DNA from: a virus
Length of the DNA stretch: 64,000 nucleotides
Virus record (IMG/VR): IMGVR_UViG_3300025646_005060
Coordinates: 1 to 64,000 of that record
Direction: 5' to 3' (one strand)
The first letter of the stretch is position 1. Each line of letters opens with the position of its first letter. Made by a program: the position numbers and the translations under genes. The notes below the pieces were generated by a model. That model worked only from the letters and a program-made list of their open reading frames with translations. It was not told the origin of the DNA and ran no database searches. Below, piece after piece: positions 7,955 to 47,200 of the stretch.

Positions 7955-8738
7955 ATGGTCCATATAAATCTTCATAATAATATTCACCTTCACTCGGATA
8001 CCAATTATATGGATACGAATTCCAATTATATTTTGTCCAGACCAAATCGATCTTGGGAATTACTTTAAACACTTTGTCTCTTACTTTTTCTGAAAAAATT
8101 CTTGCATCAGGTTTAATTGAGTTATCTACCAAATATTCTTTAAAATTTTGCAGATATAAATCGACTTCTTCATATATTTGCCTAAAATACATTGCTCCAA
8201 GATAAATATTAGGCCTCATGTATTGTTTAAAATCATTTGATTCTATTTTCATTTTTTCTGGTTTCAATGGAATGTCAAAAAGTCGATAAATATCATCCCT
8301 ATATCCCCAGAAAAGATGGTCTTGTGGATGAAAAGGATGTCGATTATTCATCCCTATTACAAAAATATTACCTTTTCTTTTAATTCCATCAGAATATACC
8401 AACTCAGTGTCATTGATATTTTTATTAACAAAATTAAAAAGCATATTCATGCTATTAATATTAATTGTTTGATCTGAGCGAACTTTAACAACCATTTCAC
8501 TGGTTGTTGCTTTTATTCCTTCAAAAGAGGATACAATCTGTAAATTCATATTTCCCAAATCACTAGAATCTGGTTTTTTTGATTTAATAATAAATATTTT
8601 TGAATTATCAATTGATTCGACATCATCTGTATCCCATGTTGAAATTATTACCTTATTGACAAATGGCAACGTCGAATAATATTTTGCTGTTGATGTTGTG
8701 GTATTCCACATACCACCTTGTATTACAATATCAAGCAT
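7944..8738 (-). CDS. WavE-like lipopolysaccharide synthesis protein
   Basis: This 264-residue protein matches the WavE family pattern: VIQGGMWNTTTSTAKYY at the N-terminus, FVNKVIISTWDTDD, and MVVKVRSDQTINI, where the KxRxDQ segment is the family hallmark. WavE was described in Vibrio cholerae LPS core biosynthesis and is presumed to be a glycosyltransferase. The tail is rich in Tyr, Trp and Asp. It overlaps the DUF6165 gene by 8 bases. The gene is strongly AT-rich. The acceptor sugar is unknown. Confidence 0.7.
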   Translation of the reverse strand: MLDIVIQGGMWNTTTSTAKYYSTLPFVNKVIISTWDTDDVESIDNSKIFIIKSKKPDSSDLGNMNLQIVSSFEGIKATTSEMVVKVRSDQTININSMNMLFNFVNKNINDTELVYSDGIKRKGNIFVIGMNNRHPFHPQDHLFWGYRDDIYRLFDIPLKPEKMKIESNDFKQYMRPNIYLGAMYFRQIYEEVDLYLQNFKEYLVDNSIKPDARIFSEKVRDKVFKVIPKIDLVWTKYNWNSYPYNWYPSEGEYYYEDLYGPYED

Positions 8739-9102
8739 ATGATTTTTCTTCCCTTATAGTCGAATTGCTTAATTTATTAATTTTGTTCTTAATACTGAAT
8801 CTAATATCGTTGGATATATAAACAGAACGAGCAAGTTCAATGAATTCATAATCAAATTCCATTTTAGATTCCTTTATTCTTATTTTATCCTCAATGTCCC
8901 ACAATTTTTCATTTATTTCTTTTAATTTTTTTATTTCAGATTCAAATATATTTAAATAATCATTCTCATTTAAAGAAAAAAATAATGTATTCTTTTCTTT
9001 TATTATATTTGCTAACTTATTATCATCTTTTATCCTTTCAGATTTAATAACAAGTATAGTATATTTATCAATTACTTCTCCAACAGATGCTTCTATAATC
9101 AT
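8731..9102 (-). CDS. DUF6165-like protein of glycan clusters
   Basis: The start is set at the ATG at 9102 because it overlaps the upstream stop (ATGA). The protein then begins MIIEASVGEVIDKYTIL. The pattern SVGEVIDKYTILVIKSERI, KLWDIEDKIR and FIELARSVYISND, ending EEKSYA, matches what I know as DUF6165. These are small, mostly helical proteins encoded beside glycosyltransferases in bacteria and phages. The molecular role is not known; an accessory or scaffolding part is possible. Base composition is extremely AT-rich. Confidence 0.65.
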   Translation of the reverse strand: MIIEASVGEVIDKYTILVIKSERIKDDNKLANIIKEKNTLFFSLNENDYLNIFESEIKKLKEINEKLWDIEDKIRIKESKMEFDYEFIELARSVYISNDIRFSIKNKINKLSNSTIREEKSYA

Positions 9103-9824
9103 GAAATATATTTCCAATCTTTTTTATAAATTTTATTGATGTAATTAAAGTTTGAATATTGCGGTGAACCATCAATGACTCTCCCATATACAAATAATTT
9201 ATTAGTTGTATTTAAACATTCAATCAAATAACACAGAGATGTTTCCACTGTATGAATTTCCTCTGCATTTTCCAAAATCCAACTTAAGTCAAAAAAATTA
9301 AACTGGTGTAAATGCTCTTCCGTTTGTTCAATGATTCTCCAATTCGTTTCTACAGTAATATTTCTTTGATATATCTTGGGGGGAGATGCAAATAATGAAT
9401 TAACAAATACAAATTTTTCATTATCATTTAAACCAAGTTTTTCTTTACATGCTTTTTCTCTATCTGCAAATCTCTTAAAATTAATATAATTTTGCCAATT
9501 GTTAAAATCAGAATTTACTAATTTATATTTTGCCTCCATAAAATCAAAATGACGCCCAGGAATTTTTGCAACATCAAATGGAATATACATATAATCTTTA
9601 TTAGATATTAAATTATCTGATTTGTACAATTCTTGTATCTCACATGACAAATCATTCATAGAAACATAATTAATATTATCTGATGAATTATAATCTTTAA
9701 GATATTGATAATGCTCAATGACTGGCCAGATCACTTGATAATCTTTTTCAACAAATTTATTTACTGCTTTTTGTAAAAAAAGAATATCACCAATTCCTGC
9801 GGGTTGTCGAATATAAACAATCAT
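9099..9824 (-). CDS. Putative GT9/GT-B-like glycosyltransferase
   Basis: The start is placed at the ATG at 9824, five bases after the upstream stop. An earlier in-frame start would overlap the FkbM gene. The protein (241 residues) begins MIVYIRQPAGIGDILFLQKA, the N-terminal Rossmann loop seen in ADP-heptose/LPS heptosyltransferases. The C-terminal part includes FFDLSWILENAEEIHTVETS, like the nucleotide-sugar side of GT-B enzymes. It is shorter than the usual 320-350 residues of GT9. Assignment rests on these two segments plus the glycan-island context. Confidence 0.5.
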   Translation of the reverse strand: MIVYIRQPAGIGDILFLQKAVNKFVEKDYQVIWPVIEHYQYLKDYNSSDNINYVSMNDLSCEIQELYKSDNLISNKDYMYIPFDVAKIPGRHFDFMEAKYKLVNSDFNNWQNYINFKRFADREKACKEKLGLNDNEKFVFVNSLFASPPKIYQRNITVETNWRIIEQTEEHLHQFNFFDLSWILENAEEIHTVETSLCYLIECLNTTNKLFVYGRVIDGSPQYSNFNYINKIYKKDWKYIS

Positions 9825-9828
9825 TTTA

Positions 9829-10506
9829 TTATTTTTTAATCCAAAATGCGTTTCCAGTTCCATTCTTTATTTCATTATCAAGTCCTATAGAATGTAAAGA
9901 AAATTTATCATCTAAATAGTTTTTCAAATCATCCATAAAACATTGCCCATCATATATTTGATTGATTTTATTTTCAGACAATTGAACTTCCGCAAATATA
10001 GAAGAAACGTTATCTAAATTTGTTCCTTTCAGCACTTCAAGTTCTGCTCCTTGAACATCTATACTTAGAAGATCTATATTTTCTTTTATTATATTTTCTA
10101 GTTTATCAGATTTTACTTTAATTTTAAATACAGACTTGAAAGAATAACCACTATTATTATTTTCTATAACTGGATAAATCGAATCAGATCCAGGTGAAGA
10201 TGTTCTGTAAAAATAAATATCGCCTACGATATTGGATATGGCAATGTTGTGCAGTTCGCATCTTGGATTCGATCCATATTTTTGTTTTATAATGTCAAAA
10301 AATTCAGAAACTGGTTCAAAAATATAAATTTTAGCATTTTTATACAATTGCAAATAAATTTCTGCTTCCCAACAATGATATCCACCTACAATTGCTATCA
10401 CGTTAATATCATCTTTTGATTTGTTGATATATAAATTAAAATTTGATTCGATATCTCTTGATATAATATCGTATGCGTTGGATTCGTTGTAAATTATTGT
10501 TTTCAT
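9829..10506 (-). CDS. FkbM-family methyltransferase (second copy)
   Basis: This 225-residue protein has VIAIVGGYHCWEAEIY (SAM-binding loop), KIYIFEPVSEFF (acidic residue contacting SAM ribose), ELHNIAISN and LLSIDVQGAELEVLKG, the full FkbM series. Substrates in this setting are probably sugar hydroxyls. It is ATGA-coupled to the bifunctional glycosyltransferase gene upstream and is very AT-rich. It is diverged from the FkbM gene at 3221-3829, so the pair may methylate different positions or sugars. Confidence 0.85.
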   Translation of the reverse strand: MKTIIYNESNAYDIISRDIESNFNLYINKSKDDINVIAIVGGYHCWEAEIYLQLYKNAKIYIFEPVSEFFDIIKQKYGSNPRCELHNIAISNIVGDIYFYRTSSPGSDSIYPVIENNNSGYSFKSVFKIKVKSDKLENIIKENIDLLSIDVQGAELEVLKGTNLDNVSSIFAEVQLSENKINQIYDGQCFMDDLKNYLDDKFSLHSIGLDNEIKNGTGNAFWIKK

Positions 10507-12038
10507 TTTTGAGTCTCAGTTGTATTGGGGTCGAATAGGTAATGATACATTACTTTGTCTATATTAAAATTGTATTCGGATTTAATAAGTTTAGACTCTA
10601 ATAATCTATCACAGTAATCTGCATCTTCTGCAAAGTTTTTCTCTGGGAATTTAATTTGCCTAGCAAATTCAGTCCTTACTGGATTTAGATGATTGAGTGG
10701 TCTGTGTTGTTTTCCATCTTTCTTAAAATGCCCACCGTTGGCATTTGAATGATTAAACTCCATAACGGGGTTTCCAGAAACATAATATATTCCCCAAAAT
10801 CCAACACCATCATATAAATCAGTATCAAGAACATTGAGTATTTCACTTAAATACCATTTTGAAACAATATCATCATCGTCTATAAAGCAAACATATTTTC
10901 CTTTTGCTTTATCTAATATTTCATTTCGTTTTGTGCCTACAGATTTTTCTTTGTTATCTTCGGAAATGACAATTTCTATTCTGTGTGAAAACGTTACAGG
11001 ACAAGTTTTTTGTAATATGTTTAAAAGATTATTTAATTTTTCTTTTCTCTGTGGGAGTGTCAATATTCCTATGGTTAATAATATATCTTCTTTATTCATT
11101 TTATAATTTCTTTCAGTAGTTATTACTTCTTCTATGCGTCTGAAAAGATCTCTTCCATATTCTTTTGCTTTTTCATAATTTTTATCAATATATTTTTTCA
11201 TTTTATCATATGTTTTTTCATTTATAGAATTAACTTTTTCTAAAAAATCTTCATATGATTCGAATTGTATGATTCCTCTAATATCAAAAAAATCACCAAT
11301 ATTAGGACATCCCCAGTAAATTGGAACTGTTTTTGTTAATAAACAATCTATTAATTTTTCTGTAAAATAATTAACTTCAGAACTACTTTCAATTGCAATG
11401 CTAAACATTGAATTGTATAAATGAATTTTATCATCATTTGGAAGCAATCCATCGTGCAATGTATTTGAAAATTTCCCATCATTTGTGGGGTATCGCGTGC
11501 TGCTGTAAAAAACTGTATTGTTTTCTATTAATTCTTTTTTATTCCAAATCATACATCTCAAATTATAACCAGTTTTGCCCAAATGAGAAGTTGTAAGAAA
11601 TGATATATTATACTGTTTTGTGATATCACTTAATATCGATTCATCAAATACTCCAAGACTGTCATTATGTCTGGATTTATTTTTATTCAACCACGTTCCA
11701 CCGTATGGTAAAAATTTAGCATTTGGTAAATTTAATAATACCTCTTCTTCGGTGCAAATTATTAAATCATATTGATATCCATTAAAAATAATATTTTTAT
11801 TAGATTCTCTATTATATGATGAACTAGGTTCTGTATTACACACAAAAACTTTAAAAGAATTTTTATTTTCAAATTCAATAATCTTATCAACAATAGGTCT
11901 ATGTAAATAATTAGTAACATATTTGTGATCAATGCAGGTTGCAGTGTTCCCAAATCTGGTGAAATGAATTTCACATGGAAACTCAAATTCCATTGGATCA
12001 AATCCAAAATAATCAGCATTATATACAGTTGCTTTCAT
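10503..12038 (-). CDS. Two-domain glycosyltransferase: GT10-like plus GT2
   Basis: This 511-residue protein joins two catalytic units. Residues ~1-300 resemble GT10 (alpha-1,3-fucosyltransferase-like) enzymes, with the C-terminal-lobe motif YFTEKLIDCLLTKTVPIYWG and then GDFFD near residues 220-250. Residues ~315-500 form a GT2 GT-A domain with LLTIGILTLPQRKEKL, VGTKRNEILDKAKG and the acidic cluster FIDDDD. The two active sites may add successive sugars. The GT10-like half is paralogous to the gene at 12693-13529. Start and stop both overlap neighbours by ATGA. Fusion by an assembly error is unlikely because the frame is continuous across the join. Confidence 0.8.
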   Translation of the reverse strand: MKATVYNADYFGFDPMEFEFPCEIHFTRFGNTATCIDHKYVTNYLHRPIVDKIIEFENKNSFKVFVCNTEPSSSYNRESNKNIIFNGYQYDLIICTEEEVLLNLPNAKFLPYGGTWLNKNKSRHNDSLGVFDESILSDITKQYNISFLTTSHLGKTGYNLRCMIWNKKELIENNTVFYSSTRYPTNDGKFSNTLHDGLLPNDDKIHLYNSMFSIAIESSSEVNYFTEKLIDCLLTKTVPIYWGCPNIGDFFDIRGIIQFESYEDFLEKVNSINEKTYDKMKKYIDKNYEKAKEYGRDLFRRIEEVITTERNYKMNKEDILLTIGILTLPQRKEKLNNLLNILQKTCPVTFSHRIEIVISEDNKEKSVGTKRNEILDKAKGKYVCFIDDDDIVSKWYLSEILNVLDTDLYDGVGFWGIYYVSGNPVMEFNHSNANGGHFKKDGKQHRPLNHLNPVRTEFARQIKFPEKNFAEDADYCDRLLESKLIKSEYNFNIDKVMYHYLFDPNTTETQK

Positions 12039-13554: not shown

Positions 13555-13950
13555 TCACTTTCCAATGTGGTACTTTGGAATCAATTGCCAATTCTTTTTG
13601 TCTTTGTGAGGAATGATTTTTAGTCTGGCAAGCGACAATTGAGGAGAAGCATATGACTGCGAATCTACTGCTTCAACGAGTCCCCATTCGATGAGAAGTT
13701 TGACGATGGTGTTTCTTCTGCCGATGTCGTCGTCAGACATATCCGAATCCAACCCATCAAGAATAAACATTTCCTTAAAATGTACGATAGCATAACGACC
13801 TCTCTTGTGAAGAATATGACACGATTGATACAGTTTATTTTCAGTCTTTGATGATACCCCAATTCGGGTTAACGTTTCTTTGACTTTCAAGAAGTCTTCT
13901 TCTTTGTTTAGGCGGACTTCTACACCTACACCTTCAAAAATATCTTCCAT
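13555..13950 (-). CDS. regA: RegA translational repressor
   Basis: This 131-residue protein matches T4 RegA (122 residues) strongly: EEDFLKVKETLTRIG, KLYQSCHILHKRGRYAIVHF, KEMFILDG, LLIEWGLVEAV and LIPKYHIG near the C-terminus. RegA binds start regions of many early phage mRNAs and blocks their translation, including its own. It follows gp62 as in T4, completing the 45-44-62-regA order. A late-promoter box lies 24 bases upstream, and AATATC/GATATT arms flank its GGAG ribosome-binding site. In T4 the next gene is DNA polymerase 43; here the glycan island follows. Confidence 0.96.
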   Translation of the reverse strand: MEDIFEGVGVEVRLNKEEDFLKVKETLTRIGVSSKTENKLYQSCHILHKRGRYAIVHFKEMFILDGLDSDMSDDDIGRRNTIVKLLIEWGLVEAVDSQSYASPQLSLARLKIIPHKDKKNWQLIPKYHIGK

Positions 13951-18234: not shown

Positions 18235-19289
18235 ATTTTAAGACTTTCCATATACAAATCACGAATGATTGTCTTGAGTTTTACTTTATCAATATCTCTT
18301 TCAATTCCGTCTATTTCGCGAGAAATAATACTCATTGTATCTTCTGTTTCTTCAAAGTCAACACCTTCGGACTTCTCAAGTTGTTCTTCAATTACTGCCA
18401 GACTTTGAATTCCTTTTTCCCAAAGAGCATCAATAAACTTGTCAAAAATCTTTTGCTTTGTTTTCTTTCTTACGATTAGACGAATAAAGCAGTTCTTTAG
18501 TTTTGTTTCAGAGACAAATTCTCCCATATTCTTGAGATCTTCTTTGGTAGAGTCGTCGTAAACGAAAGCATAAAACATATTGTTTGCGTTTTCAACATAG
18601 AGCATTTCGTCCATTTCAGTGTCATATATGTGAAATCCTTTCTTAACATTCACGTCTGAAAAATTCAACTGATACTGTGTCCCAAGGTAATGAATATTTC
18701 CTTCACTCTGTCTGATGTGAAAATGTCCAGAAAGAACACGATCAAATCTCTTGAATTCGGAAACATTAAATCCACCATGATGCTTGACACCAGGAATTAC
18801 CTGAAATCCTACAATCTCAAAATGCCCACCGATCATTCTGCATGGACATGAGCGAAGATAGTCTACAACCTCCTGCTCGTTTTCCTTGACTACCCAAGGT
18901 ATGATTCCAAAACAAAAATCACCAAACTTCAAAGAAGTCGGTTTCTCGTATATGCTGATTGTAGGATAACTATCGGAAATCAATTCATTCAATGAATTTA
19001 AATCATTTGAATTGCGATAATAAGTATCATGATTTCCGATAGTTATGTGAAGATTGATCTTCTTTTCCTTGAACACGTTGAGTATTCTTTTTCTTACTTG
19101 TGAAAGAGTATTGAAGTTTACATACTTTCTACGATCAAAAAAATCACCCAAGTGTACAACTTCGGTGATTTTATTCTCTTCTAAGTATGGAAAGAATTGT
19201 TGCTCAAAGAATTCAATTGCGTTTTCCAGGAAAAACGGTGAATCATTACGAACCCCGAAATGGGTATCACATAAAAATGCTATTTTCAC
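18231..19289 (-). CDS. 47: Recombination nuclease subunit (gp47, Mre11-like)
   Basis: This 352-residue metallophosphoesterase is close to T4 gp47 (339). All five motifs are visible: CDTHFG (residues 7-12), VVHLGDFFDRRKY, ITIGNHDTYY, MIGGHFEIVG and VLSGHFHIRQ. It starts with GTG at 19289, overlapping the gp55 stop (GTGA). With gp46 it forms the end-processing nuclease used in recombination and host-DNA breakdown. Confidence 0.96.
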   Translation of the reverse strand: MKIAFLCDTHFGVRNDSPFFLENAIEFFEQQFFPYLEENKITEVVHLGDFFDRRKYVNFNTLSQVRKRILNVFKEKKINLHITIGNHDTYYRNSNDLNSLNELISDSYPTISIYEKPTSLKFGDFCFGIIPWVVKENEQEVVDYLRSCPCRMIGGHFEIVGFQVIPGVKHHGGFNVSEFKRFDRVLSGHFHIRQSEGNIHYLGTQYQLNFSDVNVKKGFHIYDTEMDEMLYVENANNMFYAFVYDDSTKEDLKNMGEFVSETKLKNCFIRLIVRKKTKQKIFDKFIDALWEKGIQSLAVIEEQLEKSEGVDFEETEDTMSIISREIDGIERDIDKVKLKTIIRDLYMESLKI

Positions 19290-19894
19290 TTTTTCTTCCT
19301 TCTTCGTTTTCTTTTCTTCTTTTCCTTTGGTTCCATCTTCTCAAGATCGCTTTCTGTTAGAGAAAATGTTTTCTGAATAAATTCAGAGTAACTACCATCT
19401 GTATTTTTCTTCAACCAGTTTGTAAATTTGCCATCCATATCTGCCATCTGTAGACACTTATATTTTATAAATGCCTGTTTCTTTTCTTTTTCAATTCGTC
19501 GCAGAAAGGCATAATATATGATCTGCGTAAAATACGAAAACGGATTACTTGATTTTGCAGGATCAAAATTATGAGCATAAAGAAGACAATTTTCTACACC
19601 GTCTCCAATCATATCCTCCCTAAAGGGATAGTTGATAAAGTTGGGACGATGTGAAAGATGTTCGGCAATCTTTAAAAAACTCTCAGCAATGTAATTTGTC
19701 ACTGGTGGTCGTTTTTCACCGACTGCTTCTGCCTTATTGACCTTCTTTTTCCATTCGGTCATTGACTTGCAAAACTTTTCATTATCAATGTAATGTCTTA
19801 AAGTCTTGACTTCGTCTTCAATTTCTTTTTCGTCGTTTTCATTCATAGGACACATCATATCACTTTGTTCACGAATGTCAAGAGATCTTGACAT
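19286..19894 (-). CDS. 55: Late-transcription sigma factor (gp55)
   Basis: This 202-residue protein corresponds to T4 gp55 (185). The conserved core is NFINYPFREDMIGDGVENCL followed by NPFSYFTQIIYYAFLRRIEK, a reduced sigma region 2 that binds the RNA polymerase beta' coiled coil and recognises TATAAATA. The C-terminus is a lysine/arginine run (KEKKKRKRRRKKK) rather than a recognisable clamp-binding tail. No Shine-Dalgarno is visible before the ATG at 19894, and a second start at MNENDEK (residue 17) is possible. The many TATAAATA boxes in the window fit its activity. Confidence 0.93.
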   Translation of the reverse strand: MSRSLDIREQSDMMCPMNENDEKEIEDEVKTLRHYIDNEKFCKSMTEWKKKVNKAEAVGEKRPPVTNYIAESFLKIAEHLSHRPNFINYPFREDMIGDGVENCLLYAHNFDPAKSSNPFSYFTQIIYYAFLRRIEKEKKQAFIKYKCLQMADMDGKFTNWLKKNTDGSYSEFIQKTFSLTESDLEKMEPKEKKKRKRRRKKK

Positions 19895-19920
19895 TTTTCA
19901 AGTGAAAATGTAATTAGGGC

Positions 19921-19950
19921 TTGACAGGTTCTTGGAAGTATCTGTATAAT
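19921..19950 (+). promoter_or_regulatory. Consensus sigma70 promoter on the opposite strand
   Basis: TTGACA (19921-19926), an 18-base spacer and TATAAT (19945-19950) form a 12-of-12 match to the bacterial sigma70 consensus. It lies in the 100-base gap between gp55 and the Sm-like gene and points away from gp55, into the 3' end of the Sm-like gene. No plus-strand gene follows, so the product would be an antisense or small RNA starting near 19957. Confidence 0.6.
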
Positions 19951-19994
19951 CTTTGTGTGGGAATGAAGAAGATCTAGAGCTATCAAGTACTCTA

Positions 19995-20732
19995 TTACTT
20001 ATAGTCATCTGAGTTAGGATCTGGATTCCAATCAGTATACTTAGTACCGAAGTCTTCACGCTTCTTTTCGTCTCCAGTAAAGCGGTTTCGCTTTTTCACT
20101 TCATCAACCATATCTAAAAGAGTCTGGGGATCTAACATTCCCGATGTAATCATATTCATGATTGCTTCAGCAGGAATATAGAGTTGCATCATAATCATAT
20201 GACGATCCAATTCTGATTCGTCTACCATGTCAGGTGGAAGATAAGAGGACTTAGATTTTTTGTTTCTTCTCTTCTTTCTCTTTGGTTTTGGATAATCTTC
20301 TTCTGACATTTGTTCTAGTTCTTCCATTTCGGCAGATGCTTTATTGATGTCTTGAATAAGTTCGTCAATAAATGTACCAAAATCTTCTGCACTTGGTGCT
20401 TTCATGCTGATGTCTTCAGTCTCTTTGATTGATACGCTTCTTGAGTTCTCTGAAAACTCACGATTGCTTTCAATTTTATAAAGTTCAACTGTTGATTTAT
20501 TTGGTTCACTCATGAGTGCAACGTGATTTGATGGAAGTACTGCTTCTTTATTATCTGTATTCATCAACCAATCGTGTAGACTTGTTACATCAACCATGCG
20601 TCCCATTGGATCATATGTAGAAGAAGTTTTGAACAGCATTGGTTGAAAAATCTTGATATTCTCGTTGCCTTCTTCCAGAACTTGACATGCAATTTCTTCA
20701 CCACTACGAAGTTTAAGAATCTTGATGTTCAT
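19995..20732 (-). CDS. Sm-like (LSm/Hfq-fold) N-terminal domain protein
   Basis: This 245-residue protein begins MNIKILKLRSGEEIACQVLE and continues with IKIFQPMLFKTSS. This is the Sm1-like strand order (residues ~1-45) seen in small phage Sm-like proteins. The middle is acidic (MEELEQMSEEDYPKPKRKKR, then a basic patch), and a conserved-looking C-terminal helix LYIPAEAIMNMITSGMLDPQ follows. Sm folds usually bind RNA as rings. It overlaps uvsW upstream by 20 bases and precedes gp55, a place where marine T4-like phages often carry a hypothetical gene. RNA binding is an inference; the fold call is moderate. Confidence 0.55.
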   Translation of the reverse strand: MNIKILKLRSGEEIACQVLEEGNENIKIFQPMLFKTSSTYDPMGRMVDVTSLHDWLMNTDNKEAVLPSNHVALMSEPNKSTVELYKIESNREFSENSRSVSIKETEDISMKAPSAEDFGTFIDELIQDINKASAEMEELEQMSEEDYPKPKRKKRRNKKSKSSYLPPDMVDESELDRHMIMMQLYIPAEAIMNMITSGMLDPQTLLDMVDEVKKRNRFTGDEKKREDFGTKYTDWNPDPNSDDYK

Positions 20733-22188
20733 TCAGCGAATCTCCTAGATTGATTTTAGTCTTCTTGAATGTGAACTGCTCATTAGTATATATGGTAGTT
20801 CTCTCATCCAGATGACGAAGAGCATGATTACGATAAGACTTCCAACTAAGATCATCTCCTATATCAAAAAGAGTTACTTTGTCCTTGGTATCTGACTTAC
20901 GAAGTCCTCGACCTATTGATTGAAGAACACGCACGACAGACTTTGAAGGTGAGGCAAATATAATCGCATGAATGTTCTTGATATTGATGCCTGTACTACA
21001 CGTTCCATAAGATGCGACAAGTACACTGTTATCATGCTTGTCCACGATCTTGCGTATCTGTTCACGATCTTCCACATCCGTCTTACCAGAAATAAAGAAT
21101 ACTTCTTTCTTTTTGTCTTTTGACAATTGTTGGAAAAGTGGGACTCCGTGCTTTTCCACAAAATTAAACAAGACAAGGACGTTGCCAGGAATATGGTTAG
21201 CAAGATTACATATAAAATTGTTCCTCTTATCATTAAGAACCAACCATTCTATTTCTTCTTGATACTTTGCTCTCTTGATCTGCGAGACATCAGATTCAGG
21301 ATATTTGAGTATCAGACAATTAATATTTAGTTGTGCCAATACTTCACGGTCAATTAGTTCTTTGGTGTGTGTGACCCGATAGAGTGTTCCAAATAGTCCT
21401 TCGAGAACCAACTGATGAACCTGAGTTCCGTCAAGAGTTCCCGTGGTTCCGATACGATATTCACATTGCTTCAATCTTGTCATGATTTTTGTCAATGACT
21501 TTGCTTTGAATAAATGGGATTCGTCTCCAATGATCGCATCAAACTGTTCAAAAAAAGATTCGGGAAGAGTGTGAAGACTTTGCCATGTGGAAATAATGAT
21601 ACGAGCATTTGTCTGCTTTTCCTGACCACCATAGATCAAGTGAATGTTCTTAGCAAACTTCTTGTCATTTGCGTAGTCTATAAAGTCCGAACACATCTGA
21701 GTAACCAGACCTGTCGTTGGTACAACCACCAAAATCTTTTTGTCGGTTCTCTTCATGAGTTCTAAAATGCAAAAATAGATGATCAAACTCTTACCACTTC
21801 CCGTTGGAGAGATCAGGAGAGTTCTACGCTTTGATATGGCGTGCTTTACCGCGTCTATCTGGTAGTCGTGCGGTTGAATGACCTGACCGTTAGAATGGAC
21901 TGTAGGGAATTCTACGGGGTCTTCTGAGGGGTGTAGACCGTCTTCGTACTCTACCTTATACCCACGGTCCTTGGCAAATGACAGAACATATGGTAAAAGA
22001 CCAGCATATATCTTATTCGTCAGAATATTAAAAAGACGAATCTTTCCATCCCATCGCTTCTTGCGAAACGCAGGATTATATTGAGAGTTCGGAACACGAA
22101 ATGTGAAGAAGGAACTTAATTCTTTTGCGATTCCTTTTTCACAATCAATCTCAATGTAGACGGAATCTATGGTCTTTATACGAATCAT
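20713..22188 (-). CDS. uvsW: UvsW helicase
   Basis: The ATG at 22188 (MIRIKTIDSVYIEIDCEKG) is chosen because it overlaps the uvsY stop (ATGA) and aligns with the T4 UvsW start region. A longer in-frame start adds eight residues. The 491-residue protein is an SF2 helicase: SYNPAF/RWDGKIRLF accessory domain, Q-like PHDYQIDAV, Walker A ISPTGSGKSLIIYF, DESH box (IIGDESHLF), motif III-like GTTGTL, SYGTCSTGI and VI QSIGRGLRK. T4 UvsW (503 residues) migrates Holliday junctions and unwinds R-loops at origins, switching replication mode late. Confidence 0.95.
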   Translation of the reverse strand: MIRIKTIDSVYIEIDCEKGIAKELSSFFTFRVPNSQYNPAFRKKRWDGKIRLFNILTNKIYAGLLPYVLSFAKDRGYKVEYEDGLHPSEDPVEFPTVHSNGQVIQPHDYQIDAVKHAISKRRTLLISPTGSGKSLIIYFCILELMKRTDKKILVVVPTTGLVTQMCSDFIDYANDKKFAKNIHLIYGGQEKQTNARIIISTWQSLHTLPESFFEQFDAIIGDESHLFKAKSLTKIMTRLKQCEYRIGTTGTLDGTQVHQLVLEGLFGTLYRVTHTKELIDREVLAQLNINCLILKYPESDVSQIKRAKYQEEIEWLVLNDKRNNFICNLANHIPGNVLVLFNFVEKHGVPLFQQLSKDKKKEVFFISGKTDVEDREQIRKIVDKHDNSVLVASYGTCSTGINIKNIHAIIFASPSKSVVRVLQSIGRGLRKSDTKDKVTLFDIGDDLSWKSYRNHALRHLDERTTIYTNEQFTFKKTKINLGDSLNEHQDS

Positions 22189-22619
22189 AGTCCTTGAGTG
22201 AACTTGATCCATTCAATTGAAGATCTTATATTCCAAATCTTATTGGAAATGATCTTGGCAACTGATTCAATATAGTTCACCTTCTCCTTCTGAAGAAATA
22301 CTTTATTTGAAAGATTGATGACACTTGAGTCACTTTCAATAAAGCGATCAAGTTCGTTCTTGAGAATTGCCAGATCAAAGGGTTCCCATCCCTTTTCTCT
22401 TAATTCTTCTTCTGACATTTTGCCAGAATAGTACAACCACTTGTCGCGACGAAGAACTTTGAGTTCTGATTCGTATCTTTCAAGAATCAACTTCTCATCC
22501 ATCAACATACAGAGATATTTGTTGTGAAGTTGAGGAATCTTTGAAGATTCGTCGTCTAAATGATTGATGTCAATTGCGGTATCAAGTTCTGCTTGTGCTT
22601 TAATTTGTTGAATATTCAT
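22185..22619 (-). CDS. uvsY: UvsY recombination mediator
   Basis: This 144-residue helical protein is similar in size and pattern to T4 UvsY (137): DTAIDINHLDDESSKIPQLH, KWLYYSGKMSEEE, NELDRFIESDSSV and ESVAKIISNKIWNIRSSIEW. UvsY loads the UvsX recombinase on gp32-coated single-stranded DNA. Its coupling with uvsW is as in T4. The start lacks a Shine-Dalgarno, and a sigma70-like promoter ends 7 bases before it. Confidence 0.9.
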   Translation of the reverse strand: MNIQQIKAQAELDTAIDINHLDDESSKIPQLHNKYLCMLMDEKLILERYESELKVLRRDKWLYYSGKMSEEELREKGWEPFDLAILKNELDRFIESDSSVINLSNKVFLQKEKVNYIESVAKIISNKIWNIRSSIEWIKFTQGL

Positions 22620-44297: not shown

Positions 44298-47200
44298 AAC
44301 ATTGGATTATCTGTTGGGTTATAATTTTTGTAAATATCACTCTCGGGATCGGGAGAATTGTTGTACAATTCTTGTGTATTTATTTTATTAGGAAGAGTTC
44401 CAGATTTTGTACTAGTTGTTCCGCTCGTAATTAAAGCATCGCTGAATCTTGGAACAAACCAAGTGGCATTTCTAATTAAATCTGGATCTGCATTTTTATA
44501 AAATTGTTCATCACAACGAATTATACGAATTGGTCTTAATTCTGCTTCAAATGTAAAGTTATCCTTTTTAGCAATTTTAACATTCGTTGCTAGACTATTT
44601 GGATTCATATTAATTGCCCATGCCTTTGTCATTCTGTCAGTGACACCATTTGAATTTGATGGATTTTGAGTTTCATCTGTTATTGGAGCACCAGTTCCAT
44701 CCTGTAAATATTGATTTTCATCTATGATTGTAGAAAAAGGTACAGCTCCAAATGCAGCAGTCGAAGACCATACCCAAGAATTAGAACCACCACCAGATGC
44801 TGCTCCAATCGCCAATCCACCTGTTTCTGTGATACGAGTATTTAATGGAGTTTCTCCTGGTGGTGCATTTCTAGTTTTGTATGCTATATACGCCAATTCG
44901 TCAATTGAAGGAATAAACCATCTACTCACCTGATAAAAACCAGTAGCACCTTCAACTTGGGTTGAAATATTTCCGTACCAATCCTGATATGTTCCATCTG
45001 GGTCATTTCCTTGAAGATTGAATTGGGGTCCAAGTGGAAGAGAATATGTAAATCCTCCTTGAACTAAGGTTTGACTGTCTCCTGAGAAATTTCTTCTAGT
45101 TTTATAATTACCAGGATAGCAAGCTCCCAATTTATCTACTGGATAATAATAATTATTAAATACAGACAGTCCTTCTGCTAAACATGTTTTCATTATTGTT
45201 TGAGATTGATCGATTGTTGCACTAATTTCATTAGTTAAAGGATAGTCATAATAAGTTTGAGGATCCCCTCCGTCGTTTGGTCCATATTGTTGATATAAAT
45301 TAGAATAATAACTAGAATATGGTGAACTTGTAGTTACTGTATTTGATCCACCAGATGCTATTGGTCCAAGGAAACTTTCTATTGCAAATCCTGCTCCCAG
45401 TCTGCAAGAATTCATAAGACCATTGTTCAATGACCATCTTCCTGATGCTCTAAGATATTTAAATCCATTTGAAATTAATCTACCAAGCGGAGAAGATTCA
45501 CAATCTTCTGTGCATAAAATACTTTCTCCCGAAGGACAACTGATAAATGTATTGTTTATTCCTGCATCATACTTTGTAGTTTGATTTCCAAATGCGCCGT
45601 CACTGTAAAGATAATTACCAAAACTTGCCAATATTGGAGTAGTTGAAGTACAGTTGTCAGGTGAAACCGCATCGAAGGCAACGTTTAGATTGTCGGGTAA
45701 GTAAGGAGCAAATGAAGCAGTTGCTCCATGACCCCATATAAATGTTTTTACATAATTATATTTAAATAATGTATTTATACTGTCGTCTGTAAGTGAAATA
45801 AAGTTATAATAATCATTTCTCCATCCAACATTGTCGTATGGTATTATACCAGTTATATAATCCGCAGTCATTACAGTTGCTGGATTTTTGGTGATTAAGT
45901 CGATTTGACTTCTTTGTTTGCCAAATCGTTTAGTGCCTGCTGAATTTATATCAGCATCAATTGTATCAGTATCGTAATTTTGACGCATGAATACTTTTTG
46001 TCTAAACATTACTGGATATTTTGACACGATGATTATGTATTTGTCTTGATCTTGATTTTGAGAATATGGTGCTACTACTGGGAATCCATATCCCTGTGGA
46101 TCAAATGATGAATTATAAATTTCACAACTAGCACCATTTGTGCTGTTTACGGCAGTTATTTCAGGATAAACATTATCAATGTATCCATTTGCATTTGGAT
46201 TTGGATTTGGAAAAAAGACAGAAGTAGTTGATGTGACTTTTCCACCCAGCAAGGCTGCCGCTTTCAATTCTTGAGCATTGACATTGGGAAAAGCGGATTC
46301 TAAGCCATTTACAGTATTGCTAAAAATTTCAAATTGTTTAGCACCATGATATGGATATCCAAAGCAAGTAGCACCATTTGGATTGAAAACTCCAACAACA
46401 ATTCCACCAGCAAATTCGGAACCATACGTCAAAGGAAGTTGAGATCCATATGGCACTTCTGGATTTTCAAAATTACCGTATCTGTTGACATACCATGGGC
46501 CAACATCGTCGTTTGATTTACATATGTTTGGAAGAAGAGCATCGATGGTTTCGTCTGTACATGTGTAAACATTTTCATTACACACAACACCGCATCCATA
46601 AAACTTTTTCAAAGAACCATTACAATTGCCATATGTTTGATCAGTACATGTGCCATCATCATTGTTACAGCATCCACCAGTTCCAGTTGTGCATATGTCT
46701 ACTGTAGTAGATCCATCCGAATACGAGCAAACAGATCCTAGTCCTTGCCAATATCCAGTACATTGAGATTGTTGTAGATTTTCTGTGCAAACTCCAGTAC
46801 CGTTGCAACATGCTCCTCTGTTACCAAACGCCGCATTACAGTTAATAGAATTTACATTCTTTCGGCAATCTGTAATTTCTGTCCATATGAACCTGCTGTT
46901 AATATCTTCTACTAGTTCGGAACAATCACAGAGTTTCAGAGGAACTTGCCATTTTTGCACAACGTTTTCAGAATCCAAGTAGCAACACACACCTAACGAT
47001 GCGTCTTGATCTGTAGAGCATAACGGAGATCCAAGAGTTCCACCTTCAATGAAAACACCATCTGTGCAATTTCCTTGCATACCTTCAAAAGATCCACCAT
47101 CAAGACATGCTCTACAGCAAAGACCAGGAACCGAATTCCAGTTTTCTTGACAATCCTCACAAGTCAATTCAGATTGACCACTACATTGTGATGCTTTAAT

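Follow-up and report, generated by a model that had tools for sequence, protein, structure and literature searches.

A conserved sigma70-type promoter pointing against the gene direction upstream of the late sigma factor gene 55 of Kyanoviridae-type phages

Introduction

The early promoters of bacteriophage T4, which capture the host polymerase at once, are near-consensus sigma70 promoters with extra conserved bases outside the hexamers, and carry TGn extensions and UP elements (PMC2988021). Antisense transcription is already known in related phages, according to the text of the citing sources, from CfrI at psbA of the T4-like cyanophage S-PM2 (Millard 2010, cited in PMC5931967) and from sense and antisense transcription of gene 32 in T4 (Belin 1987, cited in PMC2988021). 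Marine T4-like phages are described, in a passage that cites Doron 2016, as lacking MotA and AsiA, the middle regulators of T4 (PMC5780444).

The locus described here lies in a stretch of 64 000 nucleotides (the window; positions 1–64 000 of IMG/VR record IMGVR_UViG_3300025646_005060) from a T4-like (Kyanoviridae-type) phage. Next to gene 55, which encodes the late sigma factor, a promoter points against the direction of the genes. It resembles the T4 early promoters in its near-consensus hexamers and in the extra conserved bases outside them, and differs from them in the absence of a TGn extension, in its direction and, among relatives, in an inverted repeat centred on the predicted start. 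Like CfrI, it is an antisense element of a T4-like phage, but CfrI, as presented in the citing source, is confined to a single locus, that of psbA and a homing endonuclease, whereas the gene 55 site is kept family-wide. As at T4 gene 32, antisense transcription would run across a replication gene; we know of no link between the gene 32 case and a late sigma gene or a divergent promoter pair.

Methods

Gene 55 loci were taken from IMG/VR and from isolates, and the regions upstream of the gene were grouped into 195 clusters at an 88% identity cut. The score was that of the best antisense promoter within 220 nt upstream of gene 55, with shuffles of the same regions as the control.

Results

A perfect plus-strand sigma70 promoter had been claimed at this locus by a first-pass annotation and is confirmed (Table 1): TTGACA-N18-TATAAT agrees with the consensus at 12 of 12 positions and thus has the near-consensus hexamers at 16–18 nt spacing expected of a sigma70 promoter, with a spacer 1 nt above the usual 17 and without a TGn extension. 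The start predicted in that annotation agrees with a G at the position concerned, as placed from the sequence, and the T-G-T conserved among relatives at positions 6–8 past the antisense −10 hexamer is compatible with a G start at position 7. Against the single perfect promoter observed, dinucleotide shuffles of the window give a mean of 0.09 per 64 kb, and 8.7% of the shuffles contain one or more; the whole 73.9-kb record contains two in total. The accompanying statement that all genes are on the minus strand holds, plus-strand ORFs of at least 100 aa being shadows of minus-strand ORFs with the exception of one of 108 aa, which is 40% covered. No same-strand gene was found ahead of the antisense promoter in the window, nor any ORF of at least 40 aa near the 5′ end of the predicted antisense transcript. 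Elsewhere in the window, positions 8001–12000 have a G+C content of 0.27 compared with 0.35–0.42 in the rest, which suggests an acquired stretch.

Table 1. Features of the gene 55 locus in window coordinates
Feature	Position	Strand	Details
Gene 55, late sigma factor	19286..19846	−	ORF extends to 19894; phrog_234, E 1e-57
Sense promoter of gene 55	19854..19881	−	−35 TTGACA 19881–19876; −10 TATGAT 19859–19854
Antisense sigma70 promoter	19921..19950	+	−35 TTGACA 19921–19926; −10 TATAAT 19945–19950
Stretch after antisense −10 (CTTTGTGTGGGAATGAAGAAGATCT)	19951..19975	+	Conserved; predicted start G 19957; degenerate repeat
Predicted antisense transcript	19957..22212	+	Would span the Sm-like gene, then uvsW unless terminated before it
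Sm-like protein gene	19995..20732	−	PF20198, phrog_471; opposite the predicted antisense transcription
uvsW helicase gene	20713..22212	−	Next in the path of the predicted antisense transcript

On the high-coordinate side of the antisense promoter, the minus strand carries the PF20198 gene, uvsW and uvsY. The profile of the PF20198 protein matches PDB entry 3by7, whose title likens it to Sm/LSm-like RNA-binding proteins, at 2.5e-13, and a predicted model of the protein (pLDDT 93–97 over the first 90 residues) matches the same entry. By profile and predicted model, the N-terminal domain is an Sm fold. Both the Sm-like identity proposed earlier for this neighbour and the placement of the promoter antisense to it and adjoining the late sigma gene are borne out. 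The frequent annotation of the PF20198 protein as 'methylamine utilization' looks misleading given this domain, and in many relatives the protein ends in a conserved tail resembling DWNPDPxSDDYK.

Gene 55 has a promoter of its own, TTGACA-16-TATGAT, in which the 16-nt spacer ends in TGA and forms an extended −10 (TGn). The most likely start of the gene is the ATG at 19846–19844 rather than the longer ORF's start at 19894, because the sense promoter sits within the opening codons of that ORF and because many relatives place the gene 55 ATG at the expected start of the sense promoter. The ATG is exactly 7 nt past the sense −10 hexamer in 35 clusters and, counted by eye, 8 nt past it in the window (19844–19859), and gene 55 is probably leaderless. 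The antisense promoter is intergenic, as had been described, but with gene 55 starting at 19846 the gap is probably larger than the size first given. The sense promoter, the probable leaderless start and the start-site inverted repeat of relatives described below were absent from the first-pass annotation. A 20-bp inverted repeat, ATGTCAAGA-GA-TCTTGACAT (19875–19894), contains the −35 hexamer of the gene 55 promoter; within it is a second antisense TTGACA (19888–19893) without a good −10 hexamer.

An antisense promoter matching the consensus at 11 or more of 12 positions is present in 117 of the 195 clusters (60%), with 12/12 in 54 and 11/12 in 63, compared with 0.03% and 0.7%, respectively, in the shuffles; as the clusters share kinship, such counts do not represent independent events. 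The sense promoter reaches at least 11/12 in 117 of 195 as well. Spacers of the antisense promoter in relatives are 16–18 nt. Loss of the motif where the gap is kept, which would have refuted the earlier proposal, is not the pattern found: in 188 clusters the gap measures 60 nt or more, and 160 of these retain the antisense promoter at 10/12 or better. The remaining ∼15% have no 10/12 match within 220 nt, and eight of them carry an 11–12/12 antisense promoter farther upstream; in some loci it lies 200–340 nt from gene 55.

Among isolates, HTVC008M and Syn33 have perfect antisense copies (both TTGACA-17-TATAAT), seven cyanophages (S-RIM2, S-RIM8, S-RIM14, S-WAM1 and ACG-2014d, f and h) have copies matching at 10–11 of 12 positions, and Melnitz, inspected by eye, has a degenerate form, TATATT-AGCTATGTAGGG. 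A convincing antisense promoter was not found at gene 55 of S-N03, and it is absent from T6 and Vibrio phage Va3, both of which are outside the family and have different neighbouring genes. The extended motif (the promoter plus CTGTGTAGG) gave 14 matches in 2.9 million viral contigs, all 14 upstream of gene 55. Relatives thus keep the promoter at the same place and on the same strand, as expected if it has a function throughout the phage family. At the level of sequence, this comparison shows selection on the antisense and sense promoters across Kyanoviridae-type phages; upstream regions so divergent would otherwise hardly keep both hexamers and the strand of the antisense promoter.

Both promoters score at least 10/12 in 130 clusters. 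In 24 of these they overlap by 7–18 bp, mostly 16 (the geometry of Syn33), and in 86 a distance of 0–45 bp separates the −35 boxes. The 39 bp between the −35 boxes in the window is near the limit for both being occupied. Polymerases bound at closely spaced divergent promoters would exclude or hinder each other, given their footprints. In geometry the two promoters fit a divergent competing pair, pointing apart and lying close together, and exclusion between them may follow from this arrangement.

When relatives are aligned on the antisense −10 hexamer, a conserved block follows that consists of T(−1)G(+1)T(+2), flanking arms and then an A/G-rich stretch, and conservation fades ∼25 nt past the hexamer. 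In many relatives, the arms form an inverted repeat centred on the predicted start; the window copy of this repeat is degenerate. Stems of four or more Watson–Crick pairs can be formed by 45 of 130 distinct sequences, compared with 10.9 ± 3.0 after exchange of the right arms; with one sequence per left arm the count is 21–27 of 64 against ∼4, the maximum of 500 permutations being 12. At five downstream control positions, no count exceeded the largest of its own permutations. There are 33 distinct stems, such as CAACTG/CAGTTG, AACGG/CCGTT, AGGGG/CCCCT and CCCCT/AGGGG. Sequence comparison thus shows that the arms covary across relatives, a result that holds for the family and not for the window copy. 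Read on the antisense strand, the mispairs comprise 60 G-T and 12 A-C, a hint that the strand pairs with itself, although a G-rich right arm may contribute to the excess (T-G 42, G-T 18).

Several roles for the repeat and the block behind it were rejected. An intrinsic terminator was set aside since, by eye, neither strand has a T-run after the repeat, and the ratio of G-T to A-C mispairs argues against a hairpin in sense read-through RNA. Nor can the repeat simply be a stem of the antisense RNA, because the left arm precedes the expected start. Two readings are left: the non-template strand may fold into a hairpin within the open complex, or the repeat may be an operator that co-evolves. An antisense peptide was likewise dismissed, the longest ORFs past the start site varying freely among relatives with no conserved ORF, and Rfam gave no match at gathering thresholds.

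The form of the element found in marine cyanophages, TTGACA-17-TANAAT-AACnnTGTnnnGGTTC, has 120 matches in IMG/VR: 82 lie in antisense orientation ahead of gene 55. Of the other 38, 33 have a same-strand ORF beginning shortly after, from families that include CP12 and a GIY-YIG protein. Extra sense copies occur in Syn33 (two), S-RIM2 (two) and S-RIM8 (one), whereas ACG-2014h and S-WAM1 have the gene 55 copy only; both Syn33 copies have the repeat, one (13830–13873) upstream of cpeT and the other (46909–46952) upstream of a 67-aa unknown gene. Since the cyanophage element also precedes sense genes, it appears to be a working promoter type. Searches of HTVC008M, Melnitz, genome G001 and the genome of the window gave no clear excess of such promoters over shuffles that would indicate a genome-wide family.

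Discussion

Because most relatives retain it, the conserved promoter probably serves the timing of transcription rather than being a product of chance. It is about an even proposition that the locus is a conserved divergent promoter pair with an antisense arm that acts early, directs transcription against the genes for the Sm-like protein and UvsW, and is in competition with the gene 55 promoter. From the earliest minutes of infection onwards, host sigma70 polymerase would load at the antisense promoter. The noncoding transcript started there would be antisense to the Sm-like gene and, unless terminated before it, to uvsW as well, while the sense promoter would drive gene 55 together with the genes that follow. 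The antisense polymerase would occupy the shared site and oppose the uvsY–uvsW–Sm operon, and both gene 55 and read-through into it would be held down by antisense initiation. As early transcription declines, the sense promoter would win and the late sigma factor would be made. The act of transcription would matter more than the sequence of the RNA, a role that fits the fading of conservation past about +25 and the absence of an ORF and of a same-strand gene ahead.

We infer the activity, the earliness and the effect of the antisense promoter from sequence, the earliness from its resemblance to host promoters and from the use of the element at other phage genes. Doron et al. in 2016 reportedly described a novel element that controls early genes in cyanophage Syn9 and is conserved in T4-like cyanophages; the antisense promoter element may be the same, which is a lead rather than a result.

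Promoter competition or transcriptional interference is favoured over a specific regulatory RNA because nothing is conserved beyond about +25 and because the promoter lies close to, or overlaps, that of gene 55. Points against the competing pair are the 39 bp between the −35 boxes of the window and the clusters without a 10/12 match within 220 nt; where the antisense promoter lies farther upstream, direct competition is less likely. A tentative extension, well short of even, is a family-wide switch in which the early antisense promoter and the covarying repeat, as hairpin or operator, keep the late sigma gene silent pending release by a factor of the phage or the host, MotA/AsiA middle control being replaced by promoter exclusion.

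A classical cis-antisense RNA, the idea of the first-pass annotation, would pair with the 3′ end of the Sm-like/uvsW mRNA and alter its stability or translation. Any RNA from the antisense promoter would be complementary to this mRNA, the target encodes an Sm-fold protein and CfrI offers a precedent at psbA of S-PM2 in the account of PMC5931967, which cites Millard 2010. The reading is nevertheless doubtful: conservation does not extend past about +25 (though complementarity would not require any), the distance to the Sm-like gene varies, some promoters are 200–340 nt from gene 55, and the overlap with the gene 55 promoter would be left unexplained.

A small trans-acting RNA or small peptide could account for the conserved 5′ block of ∼18 nt past the −10 hexamer, but is unlikely in the face of the missing conserved ORF, the missing Rfam match and the lack of conservation after about +25. 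Origins of T4 are primed by transcripts, and a strong lone promoter opposing the gene direction beside uvsY–uvsW could similarly serve an R-loop replication origin, with the R-loop helicase UvsW encoded next door. This is very unlikely. Cumulative GC skew, a weak proxy for origins given co-oriented genes and the recombination-driven replication of T4-type phages, climbs steadily through the site without a turning point in HTVC008M, Syn33, Melnitz and G001 and lends the idea no support. A chance match without function is hardly credible: perfect promoters do arise in shuffled windows, but well over 100 divergent relatives keep the place, the strand and both hexamers, and the extended motif occurs at gene 55 every time.

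The papers searched, mostly non-subscription ones, contain no phage in which an antisense promoter is connected to a late sigma factor, and no promoter kept family-wide beside the late sigma gene and bearing a covarying repeat at its start site. That repeat is an unusual promoter feature and would need a separate explanation. The backward promoter at the late sigma gene is a candidate part of a timing clock that may run without MotA and AsiA.
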